26,477 bases of DNA from a virus. The position numbers and the translations under genes are program-made. The stretch spans positions 1 through 26,477 of the IMG/VR virus record IMGVR_UViG_3300032516_000169; one strand, written 5' to 3'. The notes under the pieces were generated by a model that was not told the DNA's origin, did not search any database, and was given only the letters and a program-made list of their open reading frames with translations. Below are positions 3,982 to 12,358 of the stretch, piece by piece. Positions within the stretch are counted from its first letter, which is position 1, and the number at the start of each line of letters is the position of its first letter.

Positions 3982-4010
3982 ATTTTAGCAGGGTATGCAT
4001 AAATAATCAA
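3982..4010 (-). promoter_or_regulatory. Sigma70-like promoter, leaderless spacing
   Basis: Minus strand TTGATT (4010-4005), 17 nt, TAAAAT (3987-3982), then GAGAC and the ATG at 3976. The start site would fall at or beside the A of the ATG. Confidence 0.6.
3998..4005 (+). promoter_or_regulatory. T4-like late promoter candidate of HNH gene
   Basis: CATAAATA, one mismatch to TATAAATA, ends 4 nt before the ATG at 4010. It overlaps the -35 region of the minus-strand promoter 3982-4010. Confidence 0.4.
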
Positions 4011-4666
4011 TGTTCAATAAATCCAAATATACCAAATGGTACCTATCAATTATTGATAAAGCTTCAAATAGAATTACAGATGAATATTGTGAAAATCATC
4101 ACATAACTCCAAAATGCTTAGGTGGTACAAACAATAGGGAAAATATAGTAAGGCTCACCGCAAGGGAGCATTATATCTGCCATCTCCTACTTACAAAAAT
4201 GGTGTCCGGTGAAGCAAGAAAGAAAATGGTATATGCCTTTTGGATTCTCTCTAACCGCACCTCTAATAAGAACTCACGAACCTATCAGTCGGCAAGAGAG
4301 GCTTTTTCCATTGTAATAAAACAAAGAAAGCATACCAATGAAAGTAAAAGAAAAATGAGCACTGCCCAAAAAGGGAAAACTATATCTTCGGAACAAAGGG
4401 AAAGACTTAGAGTCCTGAATACAGGAGTAACAAGAAACTTCTCCGATGAACACCGTGCTAACCTTAGTAAGGCAGGAAAAGGCCGTGTTATTACAGATGA
4501 GTGGAGAGCAAAAATCTCTGCAACCAATAAAGGGCAAGGTGCAGGAAGAAAACTCTCCGAAGAAACTAAGGCTAAACTTTCTCTTGCTCGGAGAGCGACT
4601 CTTGCAAGGAAAGCTTCTTCTGTAAGCGAATCCATGATTTGTAAAACACAGGACCCACATCCATAG
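4010..4666 (+). CDS. HNH homing endonuclease with NUMOD3 repeats
   Basis: 218 residues. The HNH core is at residues 28-58: ENHHITPKCLGG, then ENIVRLTAREHYICHLL, supplying H30/H31, N45 and H54/H58. From about residue 105 onward there are several NUMOD3-like modules (NESKRKMSTAQKG, SDEHRANLSKAGKG, TDEWRAKISATNKG, SEETKAKLSLARR), the DNA-recognition repeats of phage and intron endonucleases. It is a free-standing selfish gene on the strand opposite to its neighbours. Its 3' end overlaps the 3' end of gene 4572-4991 by 95 nt. No good Shine-Dalgarno is seen. Confidence 0.9.
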   Translation: MFNKSKYTKWYLSIIDKASNRITDEYCENHHITPKCLGGTNNRENIVRLTAREHYICHLLLTKMVSGEARKKMVYAFWILSNRTSNKNSRTYQSAREAFSIVIKQRKHTNESKRKMSTAQKGKTISSEQRERLRVLNTGVTRNFSDEHRANLSKAGKGRVITDEWRAKISATNKGQGAGRKLSEETKAKLSLARRATLARKASSVSESMICKTQDPHP

Positions 4667-4993: not shown

Positions 4994-5200
4994 TTAGGTA
5001 CACCTTCCTGAGTATTGAGCAACCATGTACCAATCCGGAGCCGTTGCATCCGTATTGTACTTTGCATTGTAGTCTTTGACATGCTTCTTAGCTTCCGCTT
5101 CGTCGTCAAAGTACAAGGTTTCGTCGATCCGTGATCCCCACCCGCGCTCATATTCAACGATATCAACGCGGTATGCTTTGGGAGGAGTTATTTGTGCCAT
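4994..5200 (-). CDS. Small phage protein, leaderless transcript
   Basis: 68 residues, MAQITPPKAYRVDIVEYERGWGSRIDE..., with a FDDEAEAKKHVKDYNAKYN helix near the middle. Probably a compact beta-beta-alpha protein; no family known to me. The -10 box TATAAT ends exactly 6 nt before the ATG, so the A of the start codon is the predicted +1. It is followed by gene 4572-4991 after 2 nt. Confidence 0.75.
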   Translation of the reverse strand: MAQITPPKAYRVDIVEYERGWGSRIDETLYFDDEAEAKKHVKDYNAKYNTDATAPDWYMVAQYSGRCT

Positions 5201-5206
5201 GCCCTT

Positions 5207-5234
5207 ATTATAGCAGCATTGTAGGTATAGTCAA
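5207..5234 (-). promoter_or_regulatory. Sigma70 promoter, leaderless spacing
   Basis: Minus strand TTGACT (5234-5229), 16-nt spacer, TATAAT (5212-5207). The ATG at 5200 is at predicted +1. It lies directly behind the terminator of the large RNA locus. Confidence 0.75.
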
Positions 5235-5254
5235 CAGGAATTTTACAAAGAGAA

Positions 5255-5291
5255 AAGCCTACCTGCTGGACGTTCCAGTCTTGGTAGGCTT
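5255..5291 (-). terminator. Intrinsic terminator of the large RNA locus
   Basis: On the minus strand AAGCCTACC pairs with GGTAGGCTT (9 bp), with a nested CTGGA/TCCAG stem, followed by TTTTCTCTTT. This is the strongest candidate end of the transcript that begins at the promoter 6448-6476. Confidence 0.75.
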
Positions 5292-5907
5292 CATTGTTTT
5301 CACGCTGTTGGCTTCCGGATGCAGTTGCCAATCCCCGCCTCGCACCTTCTATGGGTCGGTTGCTTACGCATCCTTCCCTCCAGTGTTCTCGAGACTACTT
5401 TATCTATAAATTATCATATAATTAATTCATCACCACCCGCGCCGGTCGCGTTACTGGGAGTGGACGGGTTTCTTAGGCCCTTCAAACAATTAGGTTATTA
5501 AAATTCACTTGAATATATCTCCACCATGCCGATGATTCGGGTTTGGTTTACTTCAATCTAAACACAATACGGTTCAGTGAATAGGGAGGATAACCGTTCA
5601 CACCGGCTTCCCGAACAATCCTACTACCTATCACCAGAACTTCGGGAGTATAAAACACCCGGCAGTTCCGACCGTTTCGTCCTTCCTGGACTGATCACTT
5701 GTGTACTTTCCGGCCGTACAGTAGGACCGGATCTACATGGGGCTTTGTGCCATTTACCCACACGATACACAGACAGGAATAAAATGCACCTGCTGCGGCA
5801 CCCTCTTTCGAGTTACCATGAGTGTTTTTCGACTCTCCAGTCTAGCCTGGGATCCTAACCACTGGCCAAAGAACGCTGGAAGGGCTTTCACCTTCTCATC
5901 CCCGCAT

Positions 5908-5935
5908 CTTTATAGAAAATAAATTTTCTATAAAG
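5908..5935. repeat. Perfect 12-bp inverted repeat
   Basis: Twelve bases from CTTTATAG... pair with their complement around a 4-nt loop. It is AT-rich and lies inside the large structured RNA near its 5' part; no T-run follows it, so it is more likely a structural arm than a terminator. Confidence 0.8.
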
Positions 5936-5988
5936 TTACATCCTGTGTCTTGGGTGGGGCAGGATGATACGCCTTTCGGCATAGTCAG

Positions 5989-6150
5989 TTATCCATTGAA
6001 TCCGAAAAGCGAATCGTACACGTCGAGTAAATCCTCATCCGATAGATTCGGTAAATCTTTGACGGTAGTTGGTGATGCAAATTCCAGATCTGAAAGATCT
6101 GCACCATCAGTGGCGGCGGCGCGAATCTTGTCTTCTATAAGTTGTCTCAT
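5989..6150 (-). CDS. 53-residue phage protein (LSDEDLLDVYDSLFGFNG)
   Basis: The frame starts MRQLIEDKIRAAATDGADLS and ends LSDEDLLDVYDSLFGFNG. AGGAA lies 5 nt before the ATG. The C-terminal 'LSDEELxDLYxxLFG' pattern recurs in small proteins of T4-like phages as far as I recall, which supports a real gene. It is acidic and helical; function unknown. It sits between two structured RNA blocks of one apparent transcript and is too short for ordinary gene-finding cut-offs. Confidence 0.75.
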   Translation of the reverse strand: MRQLIEDKIRAAATDGADLSDLEFASPTTVKDLPNLSDEDLLDVYDSLFGFNG

Positions 6151-6159
6151 CTTTCTTCC

Positions 6160-6441
6160 TTATTTATTACAAAATCCCTTGCTTTGGTCTTGAACCAAAC
6201 GATAGGCGGTCAGTCAAACATGCTTGCAGGGTTCTTCTAACGAATACCTTCAACCTACGCATCCCCATTCAAGGGCGTATAAGAAACTTATTGCTGACGA
6301 CTGAAAGGCTACTAATGTGCTGAGGTCTCAGTCCACCGATAACATCAGTCCTCTTCCAAAATGCAACGGAACTTGAAGAACACATGACTTTGCACCGCCA
6401 TATGCCTTCTCGCCAATCGCCAGCAATAAATTCCCTAACTT
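6160..6441 (-). ncRNA. Structured RNA domain at the 5' end of the transcript
   Basis: From the predicted start (~6441) to the gene at 6150 there is no convincing frame but much structure: TTATTGCTG (6429-6421) pairs with CAGCAATAA (6296-6288) to close a ~125-nt domain; inside it CTGATGT/ACATTAG (with one G-U) encloses CTGA-GACC-TCAG, and TCTTC/GAAGA forms another arm. Downstream are ACGCCC/GGG..GCGT and TTTGGT/ACCAAA hairpins. It could be a long leader controlling the 53-residue gene or the 5' part of the large RNA. Confidence 0.5.
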
Positions 6442-6447
6442 GATTCT

Positions 6448-6476
6448 ATTATGCGCTCTTTTATTTATACTGTCAA
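6448..6476 (-). promoter_or_regulatory. Sigma70 promoter of the structured RNA locus
   Basis: Minus strand TTGACA (6476-6471), 17-nt spacer, CATAAT (6453-6448). Predicted start near 6441, a dozen nt before the first long-range helix. Confidence 0.75.
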
Positions 6477-6706: not shown

Positions 6707-7123
6707 TTACCCCAATTGATAAGAAAATTCTTTTACCGCGGCGCGCTCAGCTTCGGTAAGTTTCAAAAAAGCATCCTTAGCAAGCCGAAGTCTTGTTTCA
6801 CGAGCCAAATTGTGCTCATGGAGCCGCTGAAGTCTTTCTTCTACCATTTCTAATTCCCACTCCTCAGTTTCATAAGTGAGTGTATCATCGATGACCACGT
6901 ACGGCCATGTTCCTTCCCTATCCCAATGTCCGTATTCAAAATGAACCGATGGACCAGTTGAGGTAAGAGTGATATTGGTAGCCACACCAAGCAATTGTGC
7001 CAATGCTGTGGCATCCATAATACGCTTAGGAACACTTTTTCTATATTCCTCTACCTGAAGCAATGCTGCGCGTGTTGCTTCAGCATTGCGCATTTCACGT
7101 TGTTCTTTGGTTTCTCTTGCCAT
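6707..7123 (-). CDS. Charged helical phage protein, unknown
   Basis: 138 residues, MARETKEQREMRNAEATRAA at the N-terminus. The first 35 and last 60 residues are charged helices suited to coiled coil; the centre (TNITLTSTGPSVHFEYGHWDREGTWPYVVIDD) looks like beta strands. No domain is recognised. It follows gene 7126-7437 with a 2-nt gap and is probably co-translated. Confidence 0.7.
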   Translation of the reverse strand: MARETKEQREMRNAEATRAALLQVEEYRKSVPKRIMDATALAQLLGVATNITLTSTGPSVHFEYGHWDREGTWPYVVIDDTLTYETEEWELEMVEERLQRLHEHNLARETRLRLAKDAFLKLTEAERAAVKEFSYQLG

Positions 7124-8008: not shown

Positions 8009-8200
8009 TCAGCAGTTGGGATTTCGGTCGATGTCGTCCTGTAGTCCATCCACATATTCTTTATATGTCCATCCAAGCCGTCGAAGAAGTTTTATATCTG
8101 CGCCCATATTGCTTCTTCTTTTTCGAGCAGCCATGAGTTTACTATAGACTTCATTAAAGTCCAATCTTTTCAATCTTCTAAATGTATCTTCTTGAGTCAT
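8009..8200 (-). CDS. EDTFRRLKR/HGWT paralogue 2
   Basis: 63 residues, starting MTQEDTFRRLKRLDFNEVYS, later LLRRLGWTYKEYVDGLQDD. It shares start and end motifs with the genes at 7434, 8342 and 8514. The centre is basic (AARKRRSN). The structured RNA unit at 8217-8358 lies directly upstream and could be its leader; no strong ribosome site is seen. Function unknown. Confidence 0.75.
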   Translation of the reverse strand: MTQEDTFRRLKRLDFNEVYSKLMAARKRRSNMGADIKLLRRLGWTYKEYVDGLQDDIDRNPNC

Positions 8201-8216
8201 TATAATTTCTAAAAAT

Positions 8217-8358
8217 AGCAGTCGCGAATGAAAGAGGGGCTTTTCTTTACAATCGTATCATTCCACTGCCAGTGTTTTGGTTCTTACGGACTATAGGATG
8301 CCTCTCGGCAGACGCCCTTACACCACAACTACAAGAAGTGGCTACCGGCCGTCACACC
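8217..8358 (-). ncRNA. Structured RNA family member, unit F (dispersed copy)
   Basis: Same layout as the array at 10122-10641. On the minus strand: GTGT/ACAC closes the long 5' arm P0, which holds inner hairpins including a GCC-GAGA-GGC tetraloop; one nt; GGCAGT pairs with ACTGCT (P1, one G-U); single G; GAATGA/TCATTC (P2); an AAAGA/TCTTT hairpin (P3); GCG; then ATTTTT. The changes from the array units are compensatory. It overlaps the last 17 nt of gene 8342-8530 and ends 17 nt before gene 8009-8200. Confidence 0.7.
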
Positions 8359-8530
8359 TTTTCAATTCTTTCTCAAACTCCTCATAAGTCCATCCATGTT
8401 CCTCTAAGCAAGCAACCATTTTTTCATGCATGCTATTTCCTGGGAAACGATGGAACGATTTTTGGCAAGCTTCATAAAATGTGATACGCTTTAGCCTGCG
8501 AAATGTATCTTCTTCAGTCGAGGTTTGCAT
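8342..8530 (-). CDS. EDTFRRLKR/HGWT paralogue 3
   Basis: 62 residues, MQTSTEEDTFRRLKRITFYE and EEHGWTYEEFEKELKRCD. This is the best match to the consensus of the family. Its start overlaps gene 8514-8714 by 17 nt, and its stop lies within the 5' arm of RNA unit F, so translation of this gene could disturb the RNA fold. Function unknown. Confidence 0.75.
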   Translation of the reverse strand: MQTSTEEDTFRRLKRITFYEACQKSFHRFPGNSMHEKMVACLEEHGWTYEEFEKELKRCDGR

Positions 8531-11564: not shown

Positions 11565-11620
11565 AAAACTGTTCCTTTCTATTTTGCATCAGCAATGTAA
11601 GTAGGCCGATGCTTACTCGA

Positions 11621-11628
11621 GATAAGTA
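11621..11628 (+). promoter_or_regulatory. T4-like late promoter candidate of HNH gene 3
   Basis: GATAAGTA, two mismatches to TATAAATA, ends 4 nt before the ATG at 11633, the same spacing as for the other endonuclease genes. Confidence 0.3.
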
Positions 11629-11632
11629 TAGC

Positions 11633-12358
11633 ATGTCAGAGAGAAAATGGTCAAATGGTGCAAGCAGAAATAATGGTAAACTCGGCGGGGAAATTATGCG
11701 TCAACGACGTATTTCCGAATATGAAGCAAATCCTAAAATGTGCAAAGGATGTCAGACTGTTTTAGTTTTCGGTAAGCATCATAATACATTCTGTTCTCAA
11801 TCGTGTTCTGGCAGGTATTTTGGGAAAATAAAATCCGATAACACCGTACCGAAACCTCGCACTTATCCTAAAAAGGATAGATCCCTTCGACCACCTTATT
11901 CCACTCTATATTCGTGTGTCTGTAAACACTGTGGATATAGCTGGCAGAATAGATACTCAAAGAAGTATTGTGTAGATCATGAGGATTTATACAGCCATAA
12001 TGGACGAGCACTATTTTGGTTTACATTCGGAATATCATCTTATCCAGACCTGTTTGATGGAGAACTTATTAGGCAGCACGGTATGCGTAGTAAAGAAAAT
12101 CCAAATGGTGTCACAAGAGATCACAGAGTAAGTGTAAATGAGGCAATAAGAAACGGATATGATCCGTATTATATTACTCATCCACTAAACTGTGAGCTTA
12201 TGTTGTTTGATGAAAACAACAAAAAGAATGTTACCAGCTCGATAACATATGAAGATCTTGTTAGGCAAGTAAAAGAATATGATAGGATGGTAGGCCCTGA
12301 AGGAGTCGAACCTTCGCCTGACGGTTATGAGCCGACTGCTATTACCACATTAGCTTAG
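11633..12358 (+). CDS. HNH-type homing endonuclease with zinc fingers
   Basis: 241 residues from ATG 11633 (an alternative ATG is at 11609). A first zinc module is MCKGCQTVL...TFCSQSC; a second is YSCVCKHCGYSW...KKYCVDH. The nuclease core at ~165-200 reads GVTRDHRVSVNEAIRNGYDP, ITHPLNCELM, DENNKKN, giving the DH-H-N pattern of this phage HNH group. The last ~24 residues (GPEGVEPSPDGYEPTAITT) are the antisense translation of tRNA-Met, and the stop codon lies within the tRNA gene. The natural end was probably lost on insertion beside the tRNA. Confidence 0.85.
   Translation: MSERKWSNGASRNNGKLGGEIMRQRRISEYEANPKMCKGCQTVLVFGKHHNTFCSQSCSGRYFGKIKSDNTVPKPRTYPKKDRSLRPPYSTLYSCVCKHCGYSWQNRYSKKYCVDHEDLYSHNGRALFWFTFGISSYPDLFDGELIRQHGMRSKENPNGVTRDHRVSVNEAIRNGYDPYYITHPLNCELMLFDENNKKNVTSSITYEDLVRQVKEYDRMVGPEGVEPSPDGYEPTAITTLA

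Follow-up and report, generated by a model that had tools for sequence, protein, structure and literature searches.

A previously uncatalogued RNA of roughly 1,200 nucleotides from large T4-like phages contains a predicted internal hammerhead ribozyme

GOLLD, ROOL, and similar giant phage RNAs are widespread and, to our knowledge, their function is unknown. As described in PMC12286853, GOLLD (RF02032) is a phage RNA of ~800 or more nucleotides with a variable 5' part and a conserved 3' part, which is often located near tRNA genes and sometimes contains tRNAs in its linker, while ROOL (RF03087) is a large ornate RNA of phages and prophages that is also often found near tRNAs. Phages also carry type I hammerhead ribozymes, which have an open stem I, a CUGANGA/GAAA core, and an NUH cleavage site (Perreault et al. 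2011, PMC3088659), and gut phages carry theta ribozymes, self-cleaving RNAs with an HDV-like fold that are linked to tRNA sequences and have been proposed to act in tRNA 3'-trailer processing (PMC10879173). In a literature search with most subscription journals outside its coverage, no description of a giant phage RNA that contains a hammerhead was found.

The window analyzed here is the whole of a 26,477-nucleotide stretch of virus DNA (IMG/VR record IMGVR_UViG_3300032516_000169). Its minus strand encodes a structured RNA of ~1.19 kb, from about position 6441 to position 5247, which on the basis of its sequence and of comparison with homologues has its own promoter and terminator (Table 1). 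The explanation that we favor, with a probability of roughly 60%, is that this is a free-standing, modular noncoding RNA of ~1.2 kb from large T4-type phages that is processed by its own internal type I hammerhead. It is best read as a new class among the giant phage RNAs, similar in kind to GOLLD and ROOL but, by the tests available, a member of neither. The original prediction of a giant ornate RNA, possibly of a new class, at positions 5988 to 5245 is supported by the existence of homologues and by strong covariation among them. However, the predicted start was wrong, since the RNA begins near position 6441, which adds two conserved domains (6433 to 6283 and 6279 to 6172). The earlier bounds also left out the 53-amino-acid (aa) linker open reading frame (ORF), and both the 5' domains and the hammerhead at 5704 to 5562 had been overlooked.

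Table 1. Features of the RNA locus in the window
Feature	Positions	Strand	Basis
Predicted sigma-70-type promoter of the RNA gene, TTGACA-17-CATAAT	6448-6476	-	11 of 12 consensus matches
Domain M1: long closing helix P1 (GAAUUUAUUGCUGGCGA / UCGUCAGCAAUAAGUUUC) and internal hairpins	6283-6433	-	Covariation
Domain M3, tRNA-like: acceptor-like helix, T-arm GGUUCAAGACC, invariant GGGGAUGC, CCUGCAAGCAUG	6172-6279	-	Covariation
53-aa ORF in the linker after M3, with GGAAG Shine-Dalgarno-like sequence	5989-6150	-	ORF reading
Domain M4: GCC-GAAA-GGC hairpin, then AUCCUG..CCCACCCAAGA..CAGGAU	5940-5984	-	By-eye alignment
Linker domain, partly common to G010 and G009	5710-5934	-	Nucleotide comparison
Predicted type I hammerhead ribozyme	5562-5704	-	Comparison and covariation, eight distinct sequences
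Hammerhead core GUGAUCA, with C3G and G8C (consensus CUGANGA)	5692-5698	-	Alignment
Predicted self-cleavage site, A17 (5568) / U1.1 (5567)	5567-5568	-	Hammerhead numbering on the alignment
3' domain: GGAGAUAUAUUC (from 5522), hairpin GGGCC..CCCGUCCACU	5291-5566	-	Nucleotide comparison
Intrinsic terminator: hairpin AGCCUACC...GGUAGGCUUUUCUC (AGCCUACC...GGUAGGCU) and U tract	5247-5290 (hairpin 5290-5256)	-	Sequence
Promoter-like site of the next gene (4994-5200)	5207-5234	-	Promoter scan

Related phage contigs were first reached via a neighboring protein (6707 to 7123), and nucleotide comparison showed that the RNA itself, from window position 6442 down to 5205, is conserved and not just the genes. 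Further IMG/VR members were found with DNA patterns from the conserved parts, after which near-duplicates and chance matches were removed; L016, L044, L046, and L050 were excluded as members because reading of their sequences showed chance or unrelated pattern matches. IMG/VR yielded ten homologous loci from phages, the largest contig being 369 kb, and the final set consists of the window, G001 (17-kb contig), G003 (12 kb, cut at the contig end), G004 (25 kb), G005 (34 kb), G006 (210 kb), G007 (101 kb), G008 (49 kb), G009 (60 kb), G010 (369 kb), and G011 (54 kb). Several of these eleven members are closely related, and the covariation counts given below include shared ancestry. G006 and G010 encode the T4-type major capsid protein gp23, which places large T4-type phages among the bearers of the RNA. 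In the intact homologues, the 5' domain is always followed by the tRNA-like domain, then by the hammerhead, and then by the 3' domain; G009 begins at the tRNA-like part, and a recognizable hammerhead and 3' domain are absent from G011. When the RNAs of the window, G001, G006, and G010 were compared by blastn with 50,697 phage records, no relative was found; blastn with a 93-nucleotide (nt) M3 consensus gave chance-level hits only, and two exact-pattern scans of bacterial and archaeal genomes found none.

Promoters similar to that of the window precede the RNA homologues in G001, G004, G007, G008, G009, and G010, as read from their sequences, and the terminator hairpin and U tract are retained in eight relatives. 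The terminator that had been predicted at the end of positions 5988 to 5245 is the hairpin at 5290 to 5256; a simple terminator scan of the window did not list it, probably because the hairpin interior exceeds the loop limit. The presence of a promoter-like site for the next gene suggests that the RNA is a separate unit, and a gene related to this next gene is also found 3' of the RNA in the sequence of G007. A PHROGs and Pfam scan of ORFs and open frames in and beside positions 5131 to 6150, on both strands, gave nothing significant (the one TDBD match, at an E value of 0.009, was below its cut-off). The protein-coding explanation was rejected on this basis, and the earlier view that positions 5988 to 5245 contain no gene is borne out, with no family match in any scanned frame. 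The same stretch had been described as packed with structure, and it is indeed richly structured on the minus strand, and the predicted GNRA loops are present: GAAA in the hairpin of M4, GGAA in loop II of the hammerhead, and GUAA in the 3' element. However, its folding energy (z = -1.8 for the minus strand and -2.2 for the plus strand) is weak evidence when taken alone. Therefore, we tested the claim with homologues, and the case rests on these rather than on thermodynamics.

The compensatory changes that the original prediction looked for are present among the homologues. For M1, M3, and the hammerhead, covariation exceeds that of shuffle and slide controls, with slid structures 27 to 49% paired. 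In domain M1, 19 of 34 pairs are compensated and 93% of cells are paired (38 to 48% when slid), in an alignment of 11 sequences that counts both M1 copies of G010. These two copies are in tandem on the 369-kb contig (L051, about 8186 to 8484, minus strand), and the 5' modules thus appear to duplicate. In domain M3, 15 of 25 pairs are compensated and 96% of cells are paired, and RNAalifold, unaided, predicts the same helices. Across members, the M3 T-arm is GGUUCRAGACC, and M3 has a hairpin with the invariant loop CCUGCAAGCAU. An M3 covariance model (R1) gives the window, which is in its training set, a score of 89 bits and finds 11 of 11 members, ten of them being the training set and the eleventh nearly identical to one of these; beyond the members its scores are weak and, where the place was checked, fall on tRNA genes of these phages. 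Neither ARAGORN nor the Rfam tRNA model recognizes M3 as a tRNA cloverleaf with an anticodon.

An extra tRNA-like module, with a T-arm of the GGGGUUCGAAUCCCC type, can be read in the sequences of six relatives (G003 to G008) between M1 and M3. Related modules are present in G009 to G011, and the window and G001 are without it. (Alignment of the extra tRNA-like modules, of M4, and of some stretches of the 3' domain was by eye.) A kissing pair between this module (UGCAUCC) and M3 (GGAUGCA) is readable in several of G003 to G008, but it is not retained in G009 and G010 and is therefore not claimed. G005 and G006 (L040 and L041) have additional structured-looking units upstream of M1, and one such unit in G005 resembles a tRNA (GCGGUUCGAAUCCGC arm).

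M4 is common to the window, G001, G003, G004, G010, and G011, and its stem is UCCUG/CAGGA in some members and UCUGUG/CACAGA in others. The linker domain has 72% identity to G010 and 76% identity to G009 over adjoining stretches, and it contains a near-perfect AT-rich hairpin (palindrome) at 5908 to 5935. The 3' domain includes an element, GUCUCGAGAACACUGGAGGGAA...GAAGGUGCGAGGC, at 5395 to 5337; RNAalifold on the whole domain predicts little besides the terminator region and one hairpin, the sequences being too diverged for the alignment used. The ORFs in the linkers differ by phage. Those of the window, G008, and G010 are 53, 59, and 74 aa long, respectively, and that of G010 lies between M3 and the additional tRNA-like module; G005 has one of about 75 aa, G009 has two, and G011 has several. 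No relatives of the 53-aa ORF were found, nor was it matched to a PHROGs or Pfam family; the G001 homologue is without it, and the RNA there continues uninterrupted. The sole exception to the confinement of ORFs to linkers is in G003, in which an HNH homing endonuclease ORF (L038, about 11695 to 12163) interrupts the hammerhead GAAA and the contig ends inside the ORF. A self-splicing intron, which this G003 ORF suggested, was rejected because there is no intron model match and because the RNA is framed by a promoter and a terminator of its own.

Our explanation is weakened by G011, in which no hammerhead or 3' domain is recognizable, and by the position of ORFs between the domains, which leaves a chain of separate elements as a possibility. 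The locus would then be a polycistronic unit of small phage genes and independent tRNA-like and hairpin elements, with the hammerhead as an mRNA-processing element comparable to the short type I hammerheads located upstream of genes in other phages. The different linker ORFs of the window, G005, G008, G009, G010, and G011 are consistent with this, as are the nineteen other contigs whose short type I hammerheads share this stem I and the phage theta ribozymes that are tied to tRNA transcripts (PMC10879173). In G001, G004, G006, and G007, however, the RNA is complete with no identifiable inserted ORF in the module chain, which indicates that the RNA does not need one. Furthermore, the module order is conserved, loop III is not short but contains an insertion of 33 to 105 nt, and what lies directly downstream of the conserved 3' domain is a terminator, not a gene. 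We consider a polycistronic unit of this type to be quite improbable.

In the window, the predicted hammerhead has stem I ACACAA/UUGUGU, stem II GUCC-AGGAA-GGAC followed by GAAA, a stem III of only 5 bp (ACGGU/ACCGU) with a long insertion, and the cleavage-site triplet GUA. The window and the eight relatives with an intact middle all have stem I (R)CACAA/UUGUG(Y), the core, a short stem II with a mostly GNRA loop, GAAA, a stem III with the long insertion, UA, and then the other side of stem I, which is the element order of a type I hammerhead with three stems and an open stem I. The motif ACACAASTGATSAG has a single occurrence in the window, and none of 100 shuffles contains it. Eleven of 20 hammerhead pairs are compensated, 92.5% of cells are paired (27 to 47% when slid), and the covariation score was reached by 0 of 500 shuffles; stems I and II are 100% paired and stem III is 85% paired. 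The Rfam hammerhead models remained below threshold (best score among the relatives, 28.0 bits versus 48.5; none in the window), probably because of the long stem III insertion. The minimum-energy structure from unconstrained folding does not contain the hammerhead, so the assignment rests on comparison. Both of these results count against our explanation, as do the short stem III and the non-consensus core of the window.

In the active structure of the hammerhead, positions 3 and 8 are paired with each other. Seven distinct relatives have C-G here and the window has G-C, so that pairing is preserved. Seven loci have CUGAUGA as their core, G010 has CUGAAGA, and the window has GUGAUCA; position 7 is free to vary in the consensus, and the only change at positions 3 and 8 is the complementary double swap of the window. 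The full core CUGANGA...GAAA, A15.1-U16.1, and the NUH site are present in eight relative loci (seven distinct sequences), and U4, G5, A6, A9, G12, A13, A14, A15.1-U16.1, and an allowed H17 (A) are found in 8 of 8 distinct rows. An IMG/VR pattern scan that allowed C or G at positions 3 and 8, with the window outside the scan, matched 27 contigs, and among the matches listed all have the C3/G8 form and none a mixed form. The natural covariation of this pair described previously is U3-A8 (PMC3088659), and the same paper cites in vitro activity for covarying pairs at these positions; according to the title of Przybilski and Hammann (2007), which it also cites, exchanges of the 3-8 pair are tolerated depending on the surrounding elements. 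Compared with U3-A8, the full C3G/G8C inversion in the window is a further natural experiment on the hammerhead mechanism.

The fact that the core pair of the window is changed yet still paired could also be explained by a purely structural role, in which the hammerhead fold is a three-way junction within a giant RNA scaffold that undergoes little or no cleavage, or is rejoined after it, and the RNA stays intact, possibly as an oligomeric GOLLD/ROOL-like cage. GOLLD as presented in PMC12286853 is similar in size, phage context, and tRNA association and likewise has a variable 5' part and a modular build, and stem I could hold cleaved ends together. In contrast, the residues required for the chemistry (G5, A6, A9, G12, A13, A14, and H17) are invariant over diverged relatives, and retention of a cleavable NUH site would be unexpected in a junction that is only structural. 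The conservation of unpaired catalytic residues argues for real cleavage, and we regard the purely structural junction as unlikely.

We infer that the RNA, as a self-processed transcript, would be transcribed from its own promoter and would then fold domain by domain. The series would start with a 5' domain closed by a helix and would continue with at least one tRNA-like, T-loop-containing domain and with optional hairpin modules up to the conserved 3' domain. The hammerhead would cut the primary transcript once, most likely between 5568 and 5567. The tRNA-like domain would then be on the 5' piece (~870 nt) and the conserved 3' element on the 3' piece (~320 nt), and the pieces may stay together via stem I and the rest of the fold. 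Such a predicted cut site is a chemical handle that GOLLD and ROOL, as far as we have found, lack. Based on the size and modular build, one guess is that the processed RNA is a GOLLD/ROOL-like structural RNA particle acting during infection; long-range contacts uniting the domains into one particle were not found. Based on the tRNA-like domains, another reasonable guess is that it mimics a tRNA and interacts with host translation or with defenses that attack tRNAs, a link that is testable. A more specific proposal is that these are RNAs with a nuclease activity directed at themselves, in which tRNA-like beads are joined to the 3' domain through an active hammerhead and assemble, once self-cleaved, into a two-piece particle, with the C3-G8 pair inverted in one lineage; we put this forward tentatively, at somewhat less than even odds.

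The identity with GOLLD or ROOL that had been suggested for positions 5988 to 5245 was not upheld, since none of the giant-RNA families in Rfam 15 matches the window or the homologous loci. Direct searches of 11 records with the GOLLD model (416 positions) and the ROOL model gave no match at E ≤ 10, the ROOL search being one without a positive control, as it gave no signal in any control genome. In cmscan of the window and the homologous loci, GOLLD, ROOL, and the other Rfam models were all without a match on the RNA, including group I and group II intron and HEARO models; in the window, Rfam 15 detected only tRNA genes located elsewhere, with chance matches in the RNA region. A diverged GOLLD or ROOL would share the size range, phage origin, and tRNA proximity of this RNA, and its optional tRNA-like modules are reminiscent of the tRNAs that GOLLD has in its linkers (PMC12286853). 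Compared with GOLLD, however, this RNA has an internal hammerhead and the conserved motifs GGGGAUGC, CCUGCAAGCAUG, and GAGAACACUGGAGGGAA, and compared with ROOL it likewise has an internal ribozyme, while no hammerhead is mentioned in the passages of PMC12286853 that were consulted. Together with the lack of model matches, this makes descent from either family extremely improbable.

Unlike the phage type I hammerheads of PMC3088659, the one described here is embedded in a giant RNA, has a stem III that is interrupted by tens of nucleotides, and has a GUA-like rather than a GUC site. It also differs from the theta ribozymes in being a hammerhead within a large noncoding RNA whose tRNA-like domains are not called as tRNAs.

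Several other mobile or catalytic elements were observed in these contigs. Contig G009 has a group I intron (L052, 3545 to 3778, plus strand; Rfam, 54 bits) about 2 kb upstream of the RNA gene. The window has three probable homing endonuclease genes of HNH/NUMOD3 types (269 to 1201, 4010 to 4666, and 11609 to 12358), all of which are on the plus strand amid mostly minus-strand genes. The short type I hammerheads of the nineteen other phage contigs (L017 to L027 and L029 to L036) have the form ACACAACUGAUGAG...UC^UUGUGU and have the ACACAA/UUGUGU stem I in common with the hammerhead of the giant RNA. They are mostly located just upstream of genes, and L029, L030, and L032 have two each.
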